A DNA stretch of 64,000 nucleotides from Gilvimarinus xylanilyticus (GTDB lineage Bacteria; Pseudomonadota; Gammaproteobacteria; Pseudomonadales; Cellvibrionaceae): assembly GCF_024195295.1 (NCBI RefSeq), contig NZ_JAMFTH010000001.1, forward strand, positions 310,001 through 374,000, read 5' to 3'. The notes beneath the pieces were generated by a model. The model searched no databases. It was given only the letters and a program-made list of their open reading frames with translations, and had not been told where the DNA came from. This document shows, in pieces, positions 31,207 through 42,834 of this stretch (within the stretch, counting starts at the first letter, position 1; each line of letters starts with the position of its first letter). Both the position numbers and the translations under genes were made by a program.

Positions 31207-32115
31207 TTAACTCCGCTCGGCCAGAGCGCGAATCGCCATGGCCGCGGCGGAGGTTCTGTTTTCTACCCCCAACTTTTTAAAGATTTGCTCCAGGTGTTTA
31301 TTCACCGTGCGCGGGCTCATCTCTAATATCTGGGCAATTTCCCGGTTGGTTTTGCCATTGGCTATCCACAGCAATACATCGGCTTCTCGCTGCGTCACGG
31401 TAAACTGCTGGCGCAGTAAATCGGTGTGGTTTTCGGCGCTGGGGGCATCGGTTAGGCGCAGCAAGTACTCTTTATTGTCCACAAAGGTGAGAAATTCCAC
31501 CGCCAAGGTATCGCTGCTACTGACTTTTAATTTATGGCCGCTCTGGGGTTGGTGTGATAGCCACTGTTTTAGTTGTTCGGCAAGTGAGTTTTCGGCGCTG
31601 TCGTCCATAAACGGAGCAAGCAGTTGATGCACCCTAGGCGTTGCCCACAGAATTTCTCCGCTGGGGCTACAGGCAAACAGGTTCTGCCCAGCAGCATCCA
31701 GCGCCTGGCGTGCACTTTGGGTCATACGGGCATTGGTTAAATGTACTTGCATTCGCGCGATTAGCTCGGCGGCGTTGATCGGTTTGGTAATGTAATCAAC
31801 CCCGCCGGACTTTAAACCCATGACCACGTGTTCGGTGTCGGTTAGACCCGTCATAAACACTATGGGCACATCGATCAGCTTGGGGTTTTCCTTTAGGGTC
31901 CGACAGGTTTCAAAGCCATCCATATTGGGCATGATGGCGTCCATAAGGATAATGTCCGGGGTAATATTTTGGGTAATGGTAATCGCTTGGGAGCCTTCCA
32001 GGGCAATCAATACCGTCATATCTGATTCCTCCAGCACATCGCTAATCATGCGAATGCTGTCTACCGAATCATCAACGACGAGTACGACATCTTGTTGGTT
32101 TTTAGGCGCTTTCAT
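31207..32115 (-). CDS. LuxR-type response regulator of the permease-kinase
   Basis: 302 residues. Receiver domain with the acidic pair in VLVVDDS, phospho-acceptor D59 in PDIILMDAIMP, and Lys in YITKPIN. A PAS-like middle part (about 140-225) follows, then a C-terminal LuxR helix-turn-helix with LTQREADVLLWIANGKTNREIA (shown as TQREADVLLWIANGKT) and SPRTVNKHLEQIFKKLGVENR. It overlaps the upstream kinase gene by 14 bases, so the two form a phosphorelay pair. The divergent urt-ami operon is the obvious target (inference). Confidence 0.9.
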   Translation of the reverse strand: MKAPKNQQDVVLVVDDSVDSIRMISDVLEESDMTVLIALEGSQAITITQNITPDIILMDAIMPNMDGFETCRTLKENPKLIDVPIVFMTGLTDTEHVVMGLKSGGVDYITKPINAAELIARMQVHLTNARMTQSARQALDAAGQNLFACSPSGEILWATPRVHQLLAPFMDDSAENSLAEQLKQWLSHQPQSGHKLKVSSSDTLAVEFLTFVDNKEYLLRLTDAPSAENHTDLLRQQFTVTQREADVLLWIANGKTNREIAQILEMSPRTVNKHLEQIFKKLGVENRTSAAAMAIRALAERS

Positions 32116-35100
32116 TAGAGGGTTCCTGAAGCAGGGTAATCAGTAAGTCGAACTGGAAATTATCCACGTGGTGAATGGCTTGTTGATAAAACGCGCGGTT
32201 ACAACGCTGCTCGCTCATCAACTGGTTGAGCAGTTTCTTAATGCCGCGTTTATGACCAATTGCCGCAAGCGCGGTAAGTTCCTGACATGCCGCGTCATCG
32301 GGTAGAGATATTTTGTCGGATGCATCCGTCTCGTTTTGAATGTGGGTGGTCGGTTCGTAGCACCAGCTTAATTGCAATAAGTTACCGATTTTTTCCAATA
32401 GGGTGGACAGTTTGACCGGTTTGACCACATACGCATCGTGATGGGGTGGGTCGGCCAAATCCGGGTGGCTTTCGCGGGCGTCGGCCGAGACCATTACAAT
32501 CGGACAGGCGATATTCGCTTGTCTAAGGCGTGCGGCGAGCTCCCAGCCGCCGAGCCCCGGCATAGAAATGTCCAGCATAATTAAATCGGGCTGTAGATCA
32601 CAGGCGTTTGCCACAGCCTTTAATGAATTGTCTAAGGTGTGTACCGCAAAGCCCAAGGGGCTAAGAGCCGCGGTAATTAAGTCCCGGTGGCTCGTCTCGT
32701 CGTCCACAACAAGTAGCGAGCGGCGAGGCCCCTGGTAACCTTGAATGTGCCGAGTGGATTGGGGCGGATAGTGCGCGGGTGATGTGCTTGACAACATGAG
32801 TGCCAGCTTAAATTCACTGCCTTGACCAAGCTGACTTTTAAGACTTAAGTCGCCGCCCATAATGTCGGTTAAAAGCCGCGTAATGGTGAGCCCAAGCCCC
32901 GTACCCGAGGCGGTACTGCCGGGGCGTTTCACCCGCTCGAAAGGTTGGAAAATTCGCTCGATATTTTCGTTGGCAATGCCTTCGCCGGTGTCAGATATCG
33001 TGAACTCTGCCACCTGTGAGCGGTAGCGCACCTTAAAGATCACGCGACCGCGTTCGGTGTACTTGATGGCGTTGGACAGCAAGTTTATCAGTACCTGGCG
33101 CAGGCGCTTTTCGTCGGTTTTAACAAATTCGGGCAGGCCGGTAAGTTGAATAAACTCGAATGTCAGCCCCTTGCTTTCGGCCTGGGGGCGAAACATATTC
33201 ACCAATTGTTCGACAAGTTCGGGCAGGCGAACTTGTTCGGTATGTAGGTCCAGGCGGCCCGCCTCGATTTTAGAAATATCCAGTAAACCTTCAATTAAAT
33301 CCCCCAGATGTTCACCGCTGCGACGAATAACGCCAATAGCATCGCGCCGCGCGGGCGGAATGTCAGCGGCCTTTTCCAGCAGTTGGGCGTAACCCAGCAC
33401 GGCGTTTAGTGGTGATCGCAGTTCGTGACTAATGCCTGTTAAATAGCGGCTTTTGGCCTGGTTGGCGGCCTCGGCCACTTCCTTGGCGCGCTGCAACTCG
33501 CGGTCGGTTTGTTCGTGAGCGAGAATTTCTTCGGTCAAAAGCCGCGTTTGGCGCTGGGACTCCTCCTGTGCAACCACTCGGCTTTCGTGGGCCAAGACAA
33601 ACAGCCAACTGACAATACCGGTAATAATGACGAGTAGAAAAAAGACTTTCCAAAGTGTCGCGGCGGTGTGGGGCGTGGGCTCTTGAAAATAGATAAGCGA
33701 AAGTAGCAGAGCCGAGAAGCCGTTGATGACAGCTTGCAAACCCAAAAAGTGACCCAGGCGGGAGTTAATATTGGGCACCAACCAGGCGGGTAAAAACCCT
33801 TGTGCCAGTTGCCGCAATTGCTCCCCATAGCCCGCCCCCGGTTTGCAATAATCGCCGCAGCGGGCGTCCAGCGAGCAGCACAGGGAGCAAATATTACCCG
33901 CGTAAGCGGGGCAGTAGGTCATGTCCTCGTGCTCAAAACGGTGCTCGCAAATACAGCACTCTACCGGTTGCCCATCGGCGCGTTCGTATTCGATATCGCT
34001 GGCAATAATCTCGCGTGCTAAATAAAAACGGCCGCCGGTGAGCCAGGCAATAAGCGGGGCGGTAAGCAGTGCAGCAGCCAGGGTAATAAAATGGGCCAGC
34101 GCCTGAGCGGTGGGGCCGAGAGCAGCGGAGTAACACACCATGCCGGTAATGGCGGCGATAATCATTGCTCCGCATCCGACCGGGTTAATATCGTATAGGT
34201 GGGAGCGTTTGAATTCGATGTGCTTGGGGGAAAGCCCCAATGGTTTATTGATGACTAAATCGGCGACCAAGCAGCCAACCCAGGCGATGGCGACGACGGC
34301 GTAAAAGCCCAGAGTTTGCTCCAGTGCCTGATATACCCCAAGTTCCATTAACAAAAGGGCGATGCCGACGTTAAACACCAGCCATACCACGCGCCCCGGG
34401 TGCGAATGGGTGAGACGCGAGAAAAAGTTAGACCAGGCAATGGAGCCCGCGTAGGCATTAGTGACGTTAATTTTTAGCTGACACAAAACCACAAAAATAC
34501 CGGCAATGGCCAGGGCGACCTCGGGTGTTTGGGTAATGTAGCTAAAGGCCACCATATACATCCGGGTGGGGTCGGCGGCGTTGTCCGGGGTCATGCCGTG
34601 TTTAAGTGCTAGCACCGCAAGAAATGAACCCGCCAGCATTTTGATAACACCCAGCACAATCCAACCTGGGCCCGCCGCCATGGCGCACACCCACCAGCGC
34701 TTTTTTGTGGCTGCTGTGGGTTCGGGCATAAAGCGTAAGAAATCCACCTGTTCACCAATTTGCGCAATCAGCGCAAACATGACCGCCGCAGCGGCACCGA
34801 ACAAGAGAATGTCGAAGTGACCATCACTCTGCAATGGACTGGTAAAGGCAGTCCAATCGCTGACTGCGCTGGCGTCGGCATAGATAATAAATACAAAAGG
34901 GGTAAGCTGTAGTACCAGCCACAAAGGTTGGCTCCAGACCTGAAAGCGGCTGATGAAAGTGATGCCGTAGATCACCAGAGGAATCACCAAAACGGCACTG
35001 ATTAGGTAACCCAGCGCCAGCGGAACATTGAACAGAAGTTCAAGTGCCATGGCCATAATGGCCGCTTCCAGAGCAAAAAAGATAAAGGTAAACGACGCGT

Positions 35101-35464
35101 AGATAAGCGACGTGATGGTTGAGCCAATATAGCCAAAACCCGCGCCGCGGGTCAGCAAGTCGATATCTACTCCGTAGCGGGCCGCGTAGTAGCTGATGGG
35201 AATACCGGTAAGAAAAATCACCAGCCCCACCGCGAAAATAGCGGCTAGGGCATGGATAAACCCATAGTGCAGGGTGACGGTCGCGCCTATGGCCTCAAGG
35301 GCGAGAAAAGAAATTGCCCCCAGCGCTGTGACCGCAACCCGGCTGGCGCTCCAGCGGCGTGCACTCTTGGCGGTAAAACGCAGCGCATAATCTTCCAGAG
35401 TCTGGTTGGCAACCCATTGGTTGTAGTTGCGTCGCACGCGAAAAATATGTTGCTTGGCGGTCAT
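32102..35464 (-). CDS. Hybrid histidine kinase with an NCS1 permease as sensor half
   Basis: 1120 residues. Residues 1-475 are a full NCS1-type permease (cytosine/purine/allantoin transporter fold, about 12 helices; LTRGAGFGYIGS near 104-115). A cysteine cluster follows (C503, C504, C506, C518, C526, C529, C530, C536, C540) that looks like a metal or Fe-S site. Then come two more helices, a coiled coil, HisKA with H680 (GISHELRSPLNAVLGYAQ), HATPase (LINLLSNAIKYTERG, ISDTGEGI, GTGLGLTI), a receiver with D965 and an Hpt-like or linker tail. It probably reads amide or urea uptake and signals to the LuxR regulator. It is divergent from urtA across 352 bases. Confidence 0.92.
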   Translation of the reverse strand: MTAKQHIFRVRRNYNQWVANQTLEDYALRFTAKSARRWSASRVAVTALGAISFLALEAIGATVTLHYGFIHALAAIFAVGLVIFLTGIPISYYAARYGVDIDLLTRGAGFGYIGSTITSLIYASFTFIFFALEAAIMAMALELLFNVPLALGYLISAVLVIPLVIYGITFISRFQVWSQPLWLVLQLTPFVFIIYADASAVSDWTAFTSPLQSDGHFDILLFGAAAAVMFALIAQIGEQVDFLRFMPEPTAATKKRWWVCAMAAGPGWIVLGVIKMLAGSFLAVLALKHGMTPDNAADPTRMYMVAFSYITQTPEVALAIAGIFVVLCQLKINVTNAYAGSIAWSNFFSRLTHSHPGRVVWLVFNVGIALLLMELGVYQALEQTLGFYAVVAIAWVGCLVADLVINKPLGLSPKHIEFKRSHLYDINPVGCGAMIIAAITGMVCYSAALGPTAQALAHFITLAAALLTAPLIAWLTGGRFYLAREIIASDIEYERADGQPVECCICEHRFEHEDMTYCPAYAGNICSLCCSLDARCGDYCKPGAGYGEQLRQLAQGFLPAWLVPNINSRLGHFLGLQAVINGFSALLLSLIYFQEPTPHTAATLWKVFFLLVIITGIVSWLFVLAHESRVVAQEESQRQTRLLTEEILAHEQTDRELQRAKEVAEAANQAKSRYLTGISHELRSPLNAVLGYAQLLEKAADIPPARRDAIGVIRRSGEHLGDLIEGLLDISKIEAGRLDLHTEQVRLPELVEQLVNMFRPQAESKGLTFEFIQLTGLPEFVKTDEKRLRQVLINLLSNAIKYTERGRVIFKVRYRSQVAEFTISDTGEGIANENIERIFQPFERVKRPGSTASGTGLGLTITRLLTDIMGGDLSLKSQLGQGSEFKLALMLSSTSPAHYPPQSTRHIQGYQGPRRSLLVVDDETSHRDLITAALSPLGFAVHTLDNSLKAVANACDLQPDLIMLDISMPGLGGWELAARLRQANIACPIVMVSADARESHPDLADPPHHDAYVVKPVKLSTLLEKIGNLLQLSWCYEPTTHIQNETDASDKISLPDDAACQELTALAAIGHKRGIKKLLNQLMSEQRCNRAFYQQAIHHVDNFQFDLLITLLQEPSNESA

Positions 35465-35816
35465 TCGTTGCTCGTTCGGCGTTTGGTCGTGGGAAGGGCA
35501 AAAGCCCGTTTTGTTCGTGCATGGTGCATTGCACAGAGTAAGAGTCTTATTTGGTGCGTGGCGCGTAACGAATCGAACTCATATGCCAAACACCACACCC
35601 TCTAGCGACTATCCGTGTGGCAACAGAGCTTTGTGTTTACAAAAGCTGTACCACTTTCGACGCGCGCAAACCTTACGCGTAACTCGACGGAGGGCGTATG
35701 GGGTAAATGACGTAGTCTCATGGTGCGATTGGCGAATAGGCCACAAGAGAGACTTTCCCGAGAATAGGTGGCGAGACACAGGTTGTCTGAAACTGCTAAT
35801 CACACGAGGAAAGATC
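35465..35816. other. Divergent promoter region between kinase and urtA
   Basis: 352 bases. It contains the inverted repeat GTGCA-N8-TGCAC (35517-35534), a possible regulator site. I looked for a sigma54 -24/-12 pair (GG-N10-GC) in the candidate spots and did not find a convincing one. The open frame upstream of urtA through this region is rich in Arg and Cys and is not a gene. Confidence 0.5.
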
Positions 35817-37088
35817 ATGGCTACGATGAATCATGCAAGCCAAAGCGGCTTGGGGGGCAAGTTGCCGGGGTTGGTTAAAACTCTGGCGGGTGCTGTCGCA
35901 GGCGCCACCATGGCGTTTTCGGCGGCGTTGCACGCGGCACCGGCTACGTCCGAGGTGAACACCACCGATCTGGCGGTGACTGACGATACTGTTACGGTCG
36001 GCATTCTGCACTCGGTAACCGGTACCATGGCGATCAGTGAAACCGGCTCGGTCCAGGCCGAAAAGTTGGCGATTGAGCAGATTAACGCCCAGGGCGGTGT
36101 GCTGGGTCGTCAAATTGAATATATTCAAGAAGACGGTGCCAGTGACTGGCCCACTTTTGCCGAGAAATCGCGCAAGCTGCTGTTAAACGACAAGGTGGCC
36201 ACGGTGTTCGGTTGCTGGACATCGGCCTCGCGCAAGGCGGTACTGCCGGTGTTTGAGCAATACAACGGTATGCTGTACTACCCCACCTTCTATGAAGGCT
36301 TAGAGCAATCACCCAACGTTATTTACACCGGTCAGGAAGCGACGCAACAGATTCTTGCCGGCATCGACTGGGTGGTGGAAGAGAAAGGGGCGAAAAGCTT
36401 CTACCTGTTGGGCTCTGACTACATCTGGCCCCGCACTTCCAACAAAATTGCCCGCAAACATATCGACAAGCTGGGCCTAAAGGTTTCAGGGGAAGAGTAC
36501 TATCCACTGGGCCACACTCAGTTCAATTCGGTGATCAACAAAATCAAGCTGAAAAAGCCTGATGTTATCTTTGCCTCGGTGGTGGGTGGCTCGAACGTAG
36601 CCTTCTACAAGCAGTTAAAAGCCGCTGGTATCGATATGACCGATGAAAAGCCGCTGGTGCTGACCATTTCGGTTACCGAGGATGAAATTCTGGGTATCGG
36701 TGGTGAAAACATTGATGGCGCCTACGCCTCAATGAAGTACTTTCAAAGCCTGACCAACCAGAACAACCAGGAATTCGTAAAAGCGTTTAAAGAGCGCTGG
36801 GGCGACGACATCGTAATCGGTGACGTTACCCAAGCGGCCTACCTGGGCCCTTGGTTGTGGAAAGCGGCGGTGGAAAAAGCCGGCTCTTTCGATGTGGATA
36901 AAGTGCGCGAAGCCTCACCGGGTATCGAGCTGACCACTGCGCCTGAAGGTTATGTGAAGATTCACCCCAACCATCACCTGTGGTCCAAGACTCGTATCGG
37001 TCGCGCTAAAACCGATGGCCAATATGAAATTGTCTATGAGACTGATGAGCTGATCGAACCCGATCCGTTCCCCGAAGGTTACCAATAA
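35817..37088 (+). CDS. urtA: Urea/short-chain amide ABC transporter, substrate-binding protein
   Basis: 423 residues from the ATG at 35817 (GAGGAAAG Shine-Dalgarno). A long signal peptide is cleaved near HAAPA. The mature part opens DTVTVGILHSVTGTMAIS, typical of UrtA/AmiC-like type I periplasmic binding proteins, with YYPTFYEGLEQSPNVIYTG and IDGAYASMKYFQSL. It captures urea or small amides in the periplasm. Since the operon carries an amidase and no urease, amides are as likely as urea. A strong hairpin after the gene (37102-37122) probably allows more binding protein than permease to be made. Confidence 0.92.
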   Translation: MATMNHASQSGLGGKLPGLVKTLAGAVAGATMAFSAALHAAPATSEVNTTDLAVTDDTVTVGILHSVTGTMAISETGSVQAEKLAIEQINAQGGVLGRQIEYIQEDGASDWPTFAEKSRKLLLNDKVATVFGCWTSASRKAVLPVFEQYNGMLYYPTFYEGLEQSPNVIYTGQEATQQILAGIDWVVEEKGAKSFYLLGSDYIWPRTSNKIARKHIDKLGLKVSGEEYYPLGHTQFNSVINKIKLKKPDVIFASVVGGSNVAFYKQLKAAGIDMTDEKPLVLTISVTEDEILGIGGENIDGAYASMKYFQSLTNQNNQEFVKAFKERWGDDIVIGDVTQAAYLGPWLWKAAVEKAGSFDVDKVREASPGIELTTAPEGYVKIHPNHHLWSKTRIGRAKTDGQYEIVYETDELIEPDPFPEGYQ

Positions 37089-37101
37089 GCAGCCTTCTCC
37101 A

Positions 37102-37122
37102 CCCGCCGGATTCTCCGGCGGG
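37102..37122 (+). promoter_or_regulatory. Intercistronic hairpin between urtA and urtB
   Basis: CCCGCCGGA / TCCGGCGGG is a perfect 9-bp stem with a 3-nt loop. No long T-run follows. Such hairpins after binding-protein genes commonly protect the upstream mRNA or partially stop transcription. Confidence 0.75.
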
Positions 37123-37176
37123 TACCTTCCCGGTTTTACCTGGAAACCCGATAGATTTGAGCACGAGGATTGAGCG

Positions 37177-38103
37177 ATGTTCGCCGATTATTCCACCTCT
37201 GAATTAATGTCAATATTTGCCATGCAGGGCTTTGCCGGACTGATTTTGTTTTCGGTTTTTGTCCTTATGGCATTGGGGCTGGCCATTATTTTTGGTCAGA
37301 TGGGTGTTATCAATATGGCGCACGGCGAATTTATGATTCTCGGCGCGTACATTACCTATATGACGTCAAATGTGTTTGCGGACTATATGCCTGCACTGTT
37401 TGGCTCTTACTTTTTTGTTGCCATGATTTTGGCATTTATCGCCGCAGGGGCATTGGGGATGCTCGTGGAGTGGGCCATGATCAGGCATCTGTACCACCGC
37501 CCTTTGGATACCTTGTTGGCCACCTGGGGCCTTAGCCTAATTCTGCAGCAACTTTACCGTACTATCTTCGGTGCCCGTGAAGTGGGCGTTTCTCTGCCAG
37601 ATTGGTTAATGGGCTCGATCCAGTTAACCGATATTGTCGAAGTGCCGATTAACGGTATTTTTGTGATGACTCTCGCCATTGGTATTTCCATTGCCATTGC
37701 CGCGCTAATGTACAAATCCCGTTGGGGTATTCAGGTGCGTTCAGTGGTGCAAAACCGTCCTATGGCCGGTGCCGTGGGTATTAACACCGCCAAAGTTGAC
37801 CGCCTGACATTTGGTTTGGGTTGCGGCATTGCCGGTGTGGCCGGTAGCGCGTTTACCATGATTGGTTCAACCGGGCCCACCTCTGGGCAGTTGTATATCG
37901 TGGATACTTTCTTAGTGGTTGTTTTCGGTGGTGCAACAAGTTTGCTGGGTACGATCGCTTCCGCGTTTACCATTTCTCAAGCCCAGTCCACCATGGAATT
38001 TTTCTTAAGTGGCTCTATGGCCAAGGTTCTTACGCTGCTGTTTGTAGTGTTTATTCTGATGCTGCGTCCGCAGGGTCTGTTCTCGCTGAAAATGCGTAAG
38101 TAG
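37177..38103 (+). CDS. urtB: Urea/amide ABC transporter permease UrtB
   Basis: 308 residues, LivH-like, about 8-9 helices. FGQMGVINMAHGEFMILGAY and GIQVRSVVQNRPMAGAVGIN are the characteristic loops. VFGGATSLLGTIASAFTI lies near the C-terminus. With UrtC it forms the membrane channel. It starts 88 bases after urtA and is followed by urtC after 12 bases. Confidence 0.95.
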   Translation: MFADYSTSELMSIFAMQGFAGLILFSVFVLMALGLAIIFGQMGVINMAHGEFMILGAYITYMTSNVFADYMPALFGSYFFVAMILAFIAAGALGMLVEWAMIRHLYHRPLDTLLATWGLSLILQQLYRTIFGAREVGVSLPDWLMGSIQLTDIVEVPINGIFVMTLAIGISIAIAALMYKSRWGIQVRSVVQNRPMAGAVGINTAKVDRLTFGLGCGIAGVAGSAFTMIGSTGPTSGQLYIVDTFLVVVFGGATSLLGTIASAFTISQAQSTMEFFLSGSMAKVLTLLFVVFILMLRPQGLFSLKMRK

Positions 38104-38115
38104 GAGGAGTCCACT

Positions 38116-39273
38116 ATGTCTTACGATGGCTTGCGTTCGCTGTTGCCAAAAAATGACCTCCTCGGCTTTGCCGTTCTGGCGCTGCTGTTGGTGGTAGTAC
38201 TGCCGCTGAGCTTGGATATTTTCCGGCTCAACTTGGTGGGTAAATATTTAACTTACGCGTTTGTCGCACTCGGCTTAGTCTTGTGCTGGGGATACGGCGG
38301 TATTTTGAGCTTGGGGCAAGGGGTGTTCTTTGGCTTGGGTGGTTATGCCATGGCGATGTTTTTAAAGCTTGAGGCATCGTCGCCGGAAAATACCGCGATT
38401 CAGTCCACACCGGGTATCCCCGATTTTATGGACTGGAACCAGATTACCGAGCTGCCTTGGTTCTGGGAGCCCTTCAACAGTCTTATCTTTACCGTACTGG
38501 CGATTGTGATTATCCCCAGCATCTTTGCTTACATTATCGGCGTAGCTATGTTTAAGCGCCGTGTAGGTGGGGTGTACTTTGCCATTATCACCCAGGCGGT
38601 AGCGGCTATTCTGACCATTTTGATTATTGGTCAGCAAGGCTACACCGGTGGGGTAAACGGTATTACCGACCTTCGCACTCTAAAAGGCTGGGATATTCGC
38701 ACCGACGAGGCTAAGTATGCGTTCTATTTTCTGTGCGTGTTTATGCTGTTTGTCTGCCTGTTTATCGCGCAATATGTGCGCAAAAGCAAGCTGGGCCGGC
38801 TGCTGGTTGCCATGCGCGAAATGGAAGATCGAGTACGCTTTTCGGGCTATGACGTTTCCAATTTTAAAATCTTTGTATTCTGCCTGGGCTCGGCTTTCGC
38901 GGCTATCGGCGGCGCCATGTTCACCCTTCAGGTGGGCTTTATGTCGCCCACCTTTGTCGGCATCGTGCCGTCCATTGAGATGGTGATCTTCTGCGCGGTG
39001 GGTGGTCGTTTGTCTATTCTCGGCGCGGTCTATGGCACCTTAGTGGTTAACTGGGCGAAAACCACTTTCTCGGAAAGCTTTCCGGAGCTTTGGTTGTTTG
39101 CCATGGGTGCATTGTTTATTGCCGTGGTTATGGCCTTCCCGAATGGCTTGGCCGGTTTGTATAACAAGTACGCGGCCCATCACGTAGAAAAACTGTTGGG
39201 CAAGAAAAAAGGTCAATCGCCCGACGCAAAGGCAACCGTTGGAACCCAGGGGGTGGCTCATGAGCGCCAGTAA
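38116..39273 (+). CDS. urtC: Urea/amide ABC transporter permease UrtC
   Basis: 385 residues, LivM-like, about 9-10 helices. The conserved LCWGYGGILSLGQGVFFGLG segment and QGYTGGVNGITDL are typical of UrtC, and GRLLVAMREMEDRVRFSGYD faces the ATPase. A strong AGGAGG Shine-Dalgarno lies upstream. The 3' end overlaps urtD by 14 bases. Confidence 0.95.
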   Translation: MSYDGLRSLLPKNDLLGFAVLALLLVVVLPLSLDIFRLNLVGKYLTYAFVALGLVLCWGYGGILSLGQGVFFGLGGYAMAMFLKLEASSPENTAIQSTPGIPDFMDWNQITELPWFWEPFNSLIFTVLAIVIIPSIFAYIIGVAMFKRRVGGVYFAIITQAVAAILTILIIGQQGYTGGVNGITDLRTLKGWDIRTDEAKYAFYFLCVFMLFVCLFIAQYVRKSKLGRLLVAMREMEDRVRFSGYDVSNFKIFVFCLGSAFAAIGGAMFTLQVGFMSPTFVGIVPSIEMVIFCAVGGRLSILGAVYGTLVVNWAKTTFSESFPELWLFAMGALFIAVVMAFPNGLAGLYNKYAAHHVEKLLGKKKGQSPDAKATVGTQGVAHERQ

Positions 39274-40009
39274 CACAGATTTTGTTTTGGCGGTGGAAGG
39301 TTTGACCGTCTCCTTTGATGGCTTTAAAGCGGTTAACGATCTGAGCTTTTACGTGGACAAAGACGAGATTCGTGTGATTGTCGGCCCCAACGGGGCCGGT
39401 AAAACCACGGTGCTGGATTTGATTTGCGGTCGCACCAAATCCACCGAAGGCTCGATTAAGTTCCGCAATAAAGAGCTAACCAAAATGAAAGAGCACCAGA
39501 TAGTGCGCGCGGGGGTGGGGCGGAAGTTTCAGACGCCCTCTATCTACGGCGACCTGACGGTGTTTGAAAACTTGGAAATTTCTTTTCCTCGCGGCCGCTC
39601 GGTATTTGGCGCACTGGCTTTTAAGCGCGACGCCGAGGTGTTGAATCGGGTGAGTGAAGTTGCCGATATGATTTTCCTGAGCGATCTGTTGGAGTCCCGG
39701 GCGGACTTGCTCAGCCACGGCCAAAAGCAGTGGTTGGAAATCGGTATGTTGCTGATTCAAGACCCGGAGCTTTTGATGCTGGATGAGCCGGTGGCAGGAA
39801 TGTCGGTATCGGAGCGGCGTCAAACCGCCGAGCTATTACGCCGCATTACCAAAGATCGATCGGTCATTGTGATCGAGCATGATATGCAGTTTGTCGCGGA
39901 AATTGCCGATAAGGTCACCGTTCTGCATCAGGGTAAAATTCTCGCCGAAGGCTCTGCCGAAGAGGTGAAAGCGGACCCTAAAGTGATTGAAGTTTATTTG
40001 GGCCATTAG
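39260..40009 (+). CDS. urtD: Urea/amide ABC transporter ATPase UrtD
   Basis: 249 residues. Walker A GPNGAGKTT, Walker B LLMLDEP, switch His in IVIEHDM. The signature is LLSHGQKQWLEIGML, the form seen in UrtD rather than LSGGQ. LivG-like. The start is the ATG at 39260 inside the urtC end; a TTG 21 bases upstream would also be in frame but adds a Pro-Arg stretch not expected in the family. Confidence 0.95.
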   Translation: MSASNTDFVLAVEGLTVSFDGFKAVNDLSFYVDKDEIRVIVGPNGAGKTTVLDLICGRTKSTEGSIKFRNKELTKMKEHQIVRAGVGRKFQTPSIYGDLTVFENLEISFPRGRSVFGALAFKRDAEVLNRVSEVADMIFLSDLLESRADLLSHGQKQWLEIGMLLIQDPELLMLDEPVAGMSVSERRQTAELLRRITKDRSVIVIEHDMQFVAEIADKVTVLHQGKILAEGSAEEVKADPKVIEVYLGH

Positions 40010-40027
40010 GGCATTAAGGAGCATCCA

Positions 40028-40717
40028 ATGTTAAATGTATCCGACTATCGCGTCAGTTATGGCCAGAGTGAAATCATTCACGGCATGAACTTTGAGGTGA
40101 AGCCCAACGAAATCGTCGCCATTATGGGGCGCAATGGCATGGGGAAAACCACGTTAATGAAATCCCTGATGGGGGTTATTCCTTCCCAGGGGGGCAGCGT
40201 TACCTTGGAGGGCAAAGAGGTTTCCAAGCTTAAAAGCTACCAGCGGGTAAGCTCGGGCTTTGGTTTTGTGCCTCAGGGCCGCATGATTTTCTCAAGCATG
40301 ACGGTAAAAGAGAATATTGAAACCGGTTTGACGACGACCAATAAGCGCAGTGTGCCACGGGACTTATACGACCTGTTCCCGGTGCTTTTGGAAATGCGCA
40401 ATCGTCGCGGCGGTAACTTGTCGGGCGGGCAACAGCAGCAGCTTGCCATTGCGCGCGCCTTGGCGAGCAACCCCAAAATGCTGCTACTGGACGAGCCCAC
40501 CGAGGGGATTCAGCCATCTATTATTCGCGATATGGCAAAAACCCTTAAAGAGATTCGCGACCAGCGCGGGCTTTCGATTGTGGTGTCTGAGCAGGTGTTG
40601 AGCTTTGCGCTGGATATTGCTGATCGAATTTTGGTGATCGAAAAGGGAGATATTGTTCACGAAGAGCTGAGGGAGAATGTCGACGAGGCGAAAATTGCCT
40701 CTTATCTTTCTGTTTAA
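40028..40717 (+). CDS. urtE: Urea/amide ABC transporter ATPase UrtE
   Basis: 229 residues, LivF-like. Walker A GRNGMGKTT, signature NLSGGQQQQLAIARAL, Walker B LLLDEPTEGIQPS, and SIVVSEQ in place of the usual switch EH, as is common in UrtE. It forms the ATPase dimer with UrtD. AAGGAG lies upstream of the start. Confidence 0.96.
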   Translation: MLNVSDYRVSYGQSEIIHGMNFEVKPNEIVAIMGRNGMGKTTLMKSLMGVIPSQGGSVTLEGKEVSKLKSYQRVSSGFGFVPQGRMIFSSMTVKENIETGLTTTNKRSVPRDLYDLFPVLLEMRNRRGGNLSGGQQQQLAIARALASNPKMLLLDEPTEGIQPSIIRDMAKTLKEIRDQRGLSIVVSEQVLSFALDIADRILVIEKGDIVHEELRENVDEAKIASYLSV

Positions 40718-40732
40718 TAGTGGAGTTAGGTT

Positions 40733-41773
40733 ATGCGTCACGGTGATGTTTCAAGTTCACCCGATACCGTCGGAGTGGCGGTAGTCAATTATAAAATGCC
40801 CCGCCTGCACACCAAAGCTGAAGTGTTGGACAACGCCCGTAAGATCGCCGATATGATTATCGGTATGAAAAAGGGGCTGCCAGGTATGGATTTAGTCGTC
40901 TTCCCCGAATATAGCACCATGGGGATTATGTACGACAACGATGAAATGATGGCGACGGCGGCGACCATTCCCGGCGCCGAGACCGACATTTTCTCGGCGG
41001 CCTGTCGCGCAGCCAATACCTGGGGTGTGTTTTCTTTAACCGGCGAGCAGCACGAAGAGCATCCCCATAAAGCGCCCTATAACACTTTGGTGTTGATTAA
41101 TAACAAGGGCGAAATCGTACAAAAGTATCGCAAGTGTATTCCCTGGTGCCCGATTGAGGGCTGGTACCCGGGTGACAAGACCTATGTCACTGAGGGTCCT
41201 AAGGGCATGAAGATCAGCCTGATTATTTGCGACGATGGCAACTACCCCGAAATATGGCGCGACTGTGCGATGAAAGGCGCCGAGTTAATTGTGCGCTGCC
41301 AGGGTTACATGTACCCGGCCAAAGAGCAGCAAATTATGATGGCCAAATCCATGGCCTGGGCCAACAACTGTTATGTCGCGGTGGCCAACGCTTCGGGTTT
41401 TGACGGCGTCTACTCTTACTTTGGCCATTCGGCGGTGATTGGTTTTGACGGCCGCACCCTGGGCGAATGCGGCGAAGAGGATATGGGTGTGCAGTATGCT
41501 CAGTTGTCGGTATTACAGATTCGCGACGCGCGTAAAAATGATCAATCGCAGAATCACCTATTTAAATTACTGCACCGTGGCTACAGCGGTATTCACGCCT
41601 CCGGCGATGGCGACAAAGGGATTGCCGATTGTCCATTCGATTTTTATCGCTCGTGGGTTATGGACGCGGAACAAACGCAAAAAGATGTCGAGGCTATAAC
41701 CCGCGATACGGTGGGTGTGGCTGACTGCCCCGTGGGTAACCTGCCGGTTGGCGAAAAAGAAAAAACGGTGTAA
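40733..41773 (+). CDS. amiE: Aliphatic amidase
   Basis: 346 residues, the same length as Pseudomonas aeruginosa AmiE and colinear with it ([20 protein letters not shown] at the start). Nitrilase-fold triad: E59 (VVFPEYS), Lys of the KYRK stretch (position 134 in Pseudomonas) and Cys of [16 protein letters not shown] (position 166). It hydrolyses short aliphatic amides such as acetamide and propionamide to the acid and ammonia, in the cytoplasm. It follows urtE by 15 bases and precedes amiB by 2, so import and hydrolysis are made together. Formamidase (AmiF) is less likely from the N-terminus and length. Confidence 0.96.
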
Positions 41774-41775
41774 GC

Positions 41776-42834
41776 GTGGTTTTTATTAACCAGCGATTGG
41801 CCGACAATGAGCGTCAGACATCGGCGAAGATGTCTGACGCTTTAGCGGCTGGCTCGCAAGACATTGCTTTCCCCAGCCGTTTTCGCTTTGATTTGACCGC
41901 TGGACGGGACTATTTACACGCGAACTTAGTTGGGCAGCCGCAGGTCAGTAAAGCCCTTTGCAGTGCTTTAGCGGTTGTGAAAGCCGATATCGCTGATAAC
42001 AGTCGTCCATTATGGGCGGCGCTACTCGCGGGTCCAACAGGTGTGGGAAAGACCTCGAGTGTGAAACTGTTGGCGAAAGTTTTAACCGGTAGTGAGCAGA
42101 ACGTTTGCCGCATCGATATGAACACGCTTTCACAAAGCCATTACGCGGCGGCTTTATCTGGCGCCCCACCTGGGTATGTCGGGAGTAAAGAGGGCGTCAG
42201 CCTATTTGATGAAGCGCTGATAAAAGGTGATTTTAGTACTCCGGGCATTGTGTTGTTCGACGAAATTGAAAAGGCCAGTGACGAGGTCATTCAGGCGCTC
42301 TTGAACGTATTAGAAGAGGGGCGTCTAACCTTAACCGGTGCCGGTAAAACACTGGATTTTCGCAATAGCCTTATTTTCTTTACCACCAACCTCGGCAGCA
42401 CCGCTCACCCGATCTGGCTGGATCGATTAGGCCTGACCAGGAAAAAAAGCGATTCAGACGCAAAAGCAATCACCCGCGCGGTAGAAAGCTTTTTCACTCC
42501 CGAGTTTTATAACCGACTTGACGCGGTTTTGGTTTATCGGCCTCTCAGTGCTGAGTCAGCGGAAGATATTCTGGGCTTGGAGCTGGAGAAGCTCAATCGG
42601 CGCTTGGCCAAAAAGTCTGTCCAGCTGGATCTAACCGATAGAGCTCGACGGGAAATAATCCGCCTGGGGTTTGACGGGCGATATGGCGCCAGAGCGGTGA
42701 GGCGAATTGTACGTGAGCACCTAGAGGCTCCTTTGGCTGTGTTTTTATTGTCGGAGACGTTTTCCCCATCGGAGCAAGACCAGCTTAAGTTAAAAGCTGT
42801 TTGGGATGGAGAGGCCATTAATATTACCACCTAA
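41776..42834 (+). CDS. amiB: ClpB-like AAA+ ATPase, AmiB-like
   Basis: 352 residues, one AAA+ module. Walker A GPTGVGKTS, a substrate-loop-like GAPPGYVGSKEGVSLFDEAL, Walker B IVLFDEIEKA, sensor 1 FTTNLGS, and a C-terminal ClpB-D2 small domain with GFDGRYGARAVRRIV. It corresponds to the second gene of the Pseudomonas amiEBCRS operon, proposed as a chaperone-like partner of the amidase system. GTG start 2 bases after the amiE stop. The sensor AmiC, antiterminator AmiR and channel AmiS are absent here; the divergent permease-kinase may replace them. Confidence 0.88.
   Translation: MVFINQRLADNERQTSAKMSDALAAGSQDIAFPSRFRFDLTAGRDYLHANLVGQPQVSKALCSALAVVKADIADNSRPLWAALLAGPTGVGKTSSVKLLAKVLTGSEQNVCRIDMNTLSQSHYAAALSGAPPGYVGSKEGVSLFDEALIKGDFSTPGIVLFDEIEKASDEVIQALLNVLEEGRLTLTGAGKTLDFRNSLIFFTTNLGSTAHPIWLDRLGLTRKKSDSDAKAITRAVESFFTPEFYNRLDAVLVYRPLSAESAEDILGLELEKLNRRLAKKSVQLDLTDRARREIIRLGFDGRYGARAVRRIVREHLEAPLAVFLLSETFSPSEQDQLKLKAVWDGEAINITT

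Follow-up and report, generated by a model that had tools for sequence, protein, structure and literature searches.

The stretch of DNA analysed here, referred to as the window, comprises 64,000 nucleotides of the Gilvimarinus xylanilyticus genome (G000, C1:310001-374000), and positions below are window coordinates unless prefixed with a contig. Its subject is a permease-fused hybrid histidine kinase that is encoded together with a LuxR-type response regulator; the two genes overlap by 14 bp and are both divergent from a urtABCDE-amiE-amiB gene row. The kinase carries HisKA, HATPase and receiver domains and the regulator a receiver and a helix-turn-helix, giving the pair the composition of a two-component system. 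A first-pass annotation, made from the sequence alone, had already described these open reading frames and their order, the 1120-residue hybrid kinase with its nine Cys, the LuxR-type regulator and the divergent arrangement, and all of this was confirmed (Pfam, NCBIfam). The features of the locus are as follows.

31207..32115, minus strand: LuxR-type response regulator (302 amino acids; receiver at residues 11-122, GerE helix-turn-helix at 241-294)
32102..35464, minus strand: permease-fused hybrid histidine kinase (1120 amino acids; Pfam domains, model and fold search)
34037..35347, minus strand: NCS1-fold permease domain as predicted by AlphaFold and Foldseek (model helices, residues about 40-476)
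33845..33958, minus strand: Cys-rich segment (residues 503-540; alignment of 24 rows)
33257..33457, minus strand: HisKA (residues 670-736; Pfam)
32795..33118, minus strand: HATPase_c (residues 783-890; Pfam)
32387..32713, minus strand: receiver domain of the hybrid kinase (residues 918-1026; Pfam)
35696..35717, no strand assigned: putative regulator box GTATGGGGTAAATGACGTAGTC (one half good, the other degenerate; matrix score 17.9)
35817..37088, plus strand: urtA, predicted amide-type substrate-binding protein (TIGR03407, 561.9 bits; pocket F/W/V at 144/192/246)
37177..38103, plus strand: urtB permease (TIGR03409)
38116..39273, plus strand: urtC permease (TIGR03408)
39239..40009, plus strand: urtD ATPase (TIGR03411; true start probably the ATG at 39260)
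40028..40717, plus strand: urtE ATPase (TIGR03410)
40733..41773, plus strand: amiE aliphatic amidase (NF009802, 710.8 bits versus a cut-off of 427)
41776..42834, plus strand: amiB, ClpB-like AAA ATPase (PF07724, PF10431)

The urtA start at 35817 is our choice within a frame that is open from 35427. No Rfam family was found at the locus, and neither a sigma-70 site nor a terminator-like site was found in 35440-35850.

Pfam recognizes nothing in the first 600 residues of the kinase (no PF02133 at E<=0.1), and PF02133 has no match anywhere in the genome at E<=0.001. Residues 1-660 were modelled with AlphaFold from an alignment of 51 rows (the window and 50 named loci), yielding a mean predicted local distance difference test score (pLDDT) of 86.1 and a predicted template modelling score (pTM) of 0.87 for the permease half. 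The top Foldseek matches of this model are CodB (E 6.3e-10; TM-score 0.80 by target length) and then Mhp1 (E 1.9e-8), both NCS1 proteins, with SLC5-type and other LeuT-fold structures ranking below the NCS1 ones. When PDB sequences were searched with a profile built from the permease alignment, nothing meaningful emerged and the solved NCS1 structures were not reached; a PDB search starting from a stand-alone relative likewise gave nothing meaningful. This relative, encoded on contig C40 of genome G043, is 30% identical to the N-terminal part of the sensor (E 4.7e-27) and is itself a PF02133 protein (E 3.6e-9). Modelling thus supports an NCS1 fold for the N-terminal half of the kinase, which is also homologous to the PF02133 relative; the earlier label "NCS1-type" fails by Pfam and holds by fold and by this relative. 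At L110 13106-18141 (G043:C40), the stand-alone NCS1 permease lies in a row with CN_hydrolase, AmiC-like PF13433 and AmiR-like genes. Because it adjoins amide-related genes, the permease family is linked to amide genes independently.

The nine Cys of the kinase are located at residues 503, 504, 506, 518, 526, 529, 530, 536 and 540. Eight of them are invariant among 24 aligned relatives, and strong matches to the segment are confined to this kinase family, in the same 79 of 293 searched genomes that carry it. Further along, model helix 598-659 is unbroken, so that the last membrane helix extends to just before HisKA. The permease core contains long invariant runs in alignments of both 24 and 51 rows. 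This speaks against an alternative that we regard as unlikely, namely that these genes are under the control of the pair but its signal is a different one (for instance nitrogen status, ammonium or membrane energy), the permease domain being a relic that binds no amide.

With the N-terminal part of the kinase as query, 293 genomes of the order were surveyed, 81 of which gave a match and 79 of which hold the fusion. The two left out have a frame of 98 amino acids (G039) and a weak match in a 503-amino-acid frame (G197); G013 is counted although it is cut by a contig end, and G065 and G150 have two kinase copies each. Among named genomes the fusion is found on at least 585 contigs, with carriers including Marinobacter, Alcanivorax, Pseudomonas, Methylomicrobium and Bradyrhizobium; the best 80 of these contigs were kept, a sample that leans to close relatives. 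Of 159 fetched loci, 156 have a regulator homologue beside the kinase; the three that do not are contigs shorter than 5 kb. Several Pseudomonas loci, L160, L161 and L165 among them, have two or three regulator-like matches adjoining the kinase instead of one.

Neighbors were counted in 160 loci (the window, 79 loci from the order and 80 from named genomes) and labelled by tblastn, labels from open reading frame picking having been dropped as unreliable in GC-rich loci due to antisense frames. Amide-type UrtA occurs in 109 of the 160 loci and urea-type UrtA in 20, with urease genes present in the stretch in 15 of these 20 and FmdA in one. Order-level loci alone divide into 41 of 79 that are amide-type, 24 of urea or urease type and 14 without a marker. 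The first-pass annotation had proposed comparing such neighborhoods for amiE versus urease: one kinase clade does go with urease, and the most constant partner of amide-type loci is not AmiE (49 of 109), FmdA being commoner (96 of 109).

The distinction between amide-type and urea-type UrtA rests on nine pocket positions taken from the UrtA-urea structure of Prochlorococcus, in which Gln144 and Asn246 hydrogen-bond the urea nitrogens (PMC10392092; this and the papers cited below are used as far as their available sections go). These positions were read in 132 sequences. Positions 144/192/246 are F/W/V in all 109 amide-type UrtAs versus Q/Y/N in all 21 urea-type ones; the full window-type pocket, W-S-Y-F-E-Y-W-V-S, is present in 108 UrtAs, with one more differing at the last position, and the urea-type pocket, W-S-Y-Q-E-Y-Y-N-S, in 21, including a second UrtA of this genome. 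The remaining two rows belong to the reference, 8hic, and to the AmiC-like protein encoded at L110. In the window UrtA, Phe at 144 and Val at 246 thus replace the two urea-binding residues; AmiC likewise has Val at 246. Because of these pocket residues and because FmdA adjoins most amide-type loci, the urt-like transporter of the window most likely carries short amides, as had been predicted by the first-pass annotation. An amide cargo was suggested earlier, from gene neighbors, for an Urt-like importer of B. japonicum (PMC3098086).

A FastTree phylogeny of the N-terminal part contains a clade of 41 kinases (support 1.0) with no amide-type locus and 23 loci with urea-type urt or urease genes. 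Outside this urease clade lie five more urea-type loci (L083, L091, L108, L097, L196), and four loci hold both types, so that the amide/urea split of the kinase tree is strong, not perfect. A division by amide versus urea neighbors also argues against the sensing of an unrelated signal. Kinase residues 51, 52, 177, 189 and 400 separate the urease clade from amide-type kinases, residues 51 and 52 being located at the break of model helix TM1. Residues 51/52 were nevertheless rejected as a simple rule for specificity, since V and S are retained at these positions in three urease-linked kinases that fall outside the main clade.

Gene distances bear on a further possibility, that sensing is indirect, via loaded UrtA or the running ABC importer, with the permease domain serving as a docking or conformational partner. 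The kinase and urtA do adjoin each other in most amide-type loci, as this would lead one to expect, but in the urease branch the urt-ure operon is often distant from the kinase or on a different contig: of the 33 order-level members of the urease clade, 18 have ureC at up to 15 kb from the kinase, 6 more at up to 60 kb, 2 farther away and 6 on another contig, while in 1 no ureC was found. Given also that the related stand-alone permease of G043 has no kinase, we consider indirect sensing decidedly improbable.

An inverted repeat was found in 43 representative intergenic stretches next to kinases less than 80% identical to each other. The dyad CGTC-N4-GACG occurs in 23 of the 43, whereas in shuffles no dyad occurs in more than 8; it could be refined to a 22-bp inverted repeat with the core TACGTCA-NN-TGACGTA. 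The 22-bp matrix scores above the 99% null in 41 of the 43 representatives and in 83 of all 104 intergenic stretches. Scanning all loci (3.06 Mb) yielded 144 matches above a score of 16, at a null rate of 0.67 per Mb: 80 occupy the gap between the kinase and amide-type urtA, 77 of them within training stretches; outside these stretches, 36 lie upstream of fmdA, 17 at urea-type urtA and 4 in an amiE/urtA gap; of the rest, 4 adjoin the kinase only and 3 are located elsewhere. When the window and its two near relatives, L031 and L132, are left out of the matrix training, the window box GTATGGGGTAAATGACGTAGTC (35696-35717) still scores 17.9, 1000 shuffles having a 99.9th percentile of 16.2. In G057, a genome of the same genus, a full repeat is present at the corresponding site and before its fmdA. 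Since this inverted repeat is conserved, the kinase/regulator pair very likely controls the urt-amiE operon, in agreement with the earlier prediction that it switches the operon on. Two variants were also seen. In Bradyrhizobium loci, including L162, the palindrome TACGCAATCTTGCGTA occupies the place of the box, and the degenerate half-site TATGGGG is common to the window box, L063, L155, L072 and L049; this half-site may be a functional variant of the box.

Copies of the box elsewhere point to targets in trans. The Gilvimarinus genome contains the exact core once, no site with one mismatch and 16 with two; because sites at the two-mismatch level are no commoner than background (17 in this genome versus 21 in a reversed control), only the exact core was used. 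It lies at C1:221603-221618, 118 bp before the ATG that we chose as the start of fmdA, with fmdB next. In the order, the exact core is found in 60 of 293 genomes, 51 of 79 with the kinase versus 9 of 214 without (Fisher p 2e-27, with relatedness ignored), and the reversed-control core in 13, three of them with the kinase. Among the 33 urease-clade genomes, 17 have the exact core, by hand count directly upstream of urea-type urtA in 13 and upstream of ureD in 2; it is located 1.3 kb upstream of urtA in G249 and between the kinase and urea-type urtA in G058. Kinase and core are on different contigs in G193, G273 and G238 and about 200 kb apart in G253.

The same intergenic stretches offer an argument for a signal other than amides. 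In 37 of 104 stretches, a sigma-54-like -24/-12 element with no more than one mismatch is directed into the kinase gene, versus 1 of 104 with such an element directed into urtA, shuffles giving about 2% per strand; the best such element in the window has two mismatches. Nitrogen control thus probably enters the circuit, judging from these motifs. However, it seems to affect the making of the kinase and not its sensing, and the pattern suggests that, in species with the element, the sensor itself is under nitrogen control.

The first-pass annotation had further proposed that the pair replaces AmiC/AmiR at a locus without urease. Absence of AmiR holds for the whole genome: an ANTAR protein search gave no match here while matching 129 of the 293 genomes. 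The two PF13433 proteins of the genome are the window UrtA and the urea-type UrtA, and an AmiC/AmiR pair elsewhere in the genome was rejected on both grounds. No AmiS/UreI was found in the genome, a weaker negative as the control matched one genome only, below the cut-off. The statement that urease is lacking holds within the window but not for the whole genome: ureC is located at C1:662899-663249 in a ureD-ureC-ureE-ureF-ureG run, and the genome encodes a second, urea-type urt system. The idea of a local substitute for AmiC/AmiR did not survive either, since the kinase family appears as a general urea/short-amide system with a whole clade accompanied by urease. These findings could be taken to mean that the window belongs to a urea system, with urea the ligand of both the kinase and UrtA and with AmiE incidental. 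NCBIfam does name the transporter UrtABCDE, UrtA exceeding the curated TIGR03407 cut-off (561.9 vs 492.75 bits), and urease is present in 70 of the 79 kinase genomes as well as in this one. Nevertheless, the window UrtA lacks both urea-specific side chains, the genome encodes a separate urea-type UrtA, and 9 of the 79 kinase genomes have no urease above the cut-off. The genome's own urea-type urt and urease clusters lie apart, and no box above a score of 14 was found in the stretches fetched for them (C1:178000-197000 and 654000-673000, respectively). A urea system at this locus is therefore very improbable.

We consider it likely that the kinase serves as a membrane sensor with an NCS1 fold, detects short aliphatic amides of the formamide/acetamide class and drives genes for their uptake and hydrolysis, with a urea branch in a sister clade. 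This reading builds on what was computed here: the domain build, the conserved kinase-regulator pair, the amide-type UrtA pocket and the repeat before both urt and the remote fmdA. Several observations weigh against it. Among the 41 urease-clade kinases, 18 have no marker in the fetched stretch, and no urease was found in G044, a genome of that clade. The clade-separating positions 51 and 52 are not mirrored in the three urease-linked kinases outside the clade. With respect to the box, the half-split test gave 21/22 but was not blind, as the motif seed was drawn from all 43 representatives, and 21 of 104 stretches, mostly from Bradyrhizobium, score at or below the 99% null. The window box has a single good half, and at least one of the 1000 shuffles beats its score (maximum 18.2). 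Finally, nine genomes hold the box without the kinase; in G203 the core lies before fmdA and in G087 in a ure/urt cluster, and no marker was found near the core in the stretches fetched for the others.

By analogy with CbrA and CrbS, we propose that binding or turnover of an amide, from the periplasm or in the membrane domain, would change the NCS1-fold domain, and that this change would be relayed via the Cys-rich segment and the last membrane helix to HisKA. The phosphorylated LuxR-type regulator would then bind the repeat and activate urtABCDE-amiE-amiB at this locus as well as fmdAB about 120 kb away. In the sister clade, the same machinery would serve urea through urea-type urt and urease genes. 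In this scheme the sensor would bind its ligand and might also transport it.

The closest known systems are the SLC5/STAC kinases of CbrA/CbrB and CrbS/CrbR, which similarly fuse a LeuT-fold transporter domain to a (hybrid) kinase. CbrA has been described as a transceptor (PMC13022988), and CrbR is a LuxR-type regulator that needs an imperfect inverted repeat (PMC5715377). Unlike these, the window kinase is nearest to NCS1 in fold, has no SSS or STAC Pfam match at E<=0.1, contains a Cys-rich segment and two extra helices between permease and kinase and has another regulon. Ks-Amt5, an ammonium-transporter-fused histidine kinase (PMC5764959), is likewise a fusion of a transporter domain and a histidine kinase directed at a small nitrogen compound, but belongs to the Amt family and is concerned with ammonium. 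AmiC/AmiR serves amiE-amiB-type genes as well, and AmiC is homologous to UrtA (1pea, E 2.9e-45); the difference is that this genome lacks an ANTAR protein and that control is predicted to run via a two-component regulator. FmdDEF of Methylophilus (Mills 1998) is reportedly an Urt-like importer adjoining formamidase/amidase. Together with those of Bradyrhizobium and Pseudomonas veronii Yu15, such importers keep the same gene company as the window. P. veronii Yu15, which can grow on acetamide and formamide, encodes amiE, fmdAB and urtABCDE but lacks amiC/amiR (PMC13209695). The term "histidine kinase" is absent from that paper and, unlike here, no sensor is named in the available sections of the Bradyrhizobium and Yu15 papers. 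Urt operon III of E. guguanensis G3 comprises a second urtABCDE, a LuxR-family two-component regulator and, in a figure legend, a hybrid kinase (PMC13296017); it differs in being described there as urea transport, the available sections giving no domain analysis.

Transporter-kinase fusions are thus already known (SLC5/STAC, Amt), and the NCS1 version and its regulon are apparently new: no earlier description of an NCS1-kinase fusion, sensor or regulon was found in the literature, a result that is not proof, as subscription papers were missing. More broadly, NCS1-fold transporters may have yielded a second bacterial family of transceptor kinases, parallel to SLC5/STAC and directed at the smallest carbonyl amides, with an amide and a urea clade and with one operator, TACGTCA-NN-TGACGTA, that runs scattered genes in trans across Proteobacteria; we put the chances of this wider picture at about even.

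How bacteria detect urea and small amides by means other than AmiC/AmiR has been little described, and the kinase and its box offer a widespread candidate receptor and a predicted DNA operator. The residue rule F144/V246 versus Q144/N246 separates amide importers from urea importers that are now annotated alike. The kinase would also provide a second transporter family for studying permease-to-kinase coupling. If the wider picture is true, a dedicated urea/amide-sensing two-component system would be present across Proteobacteria.

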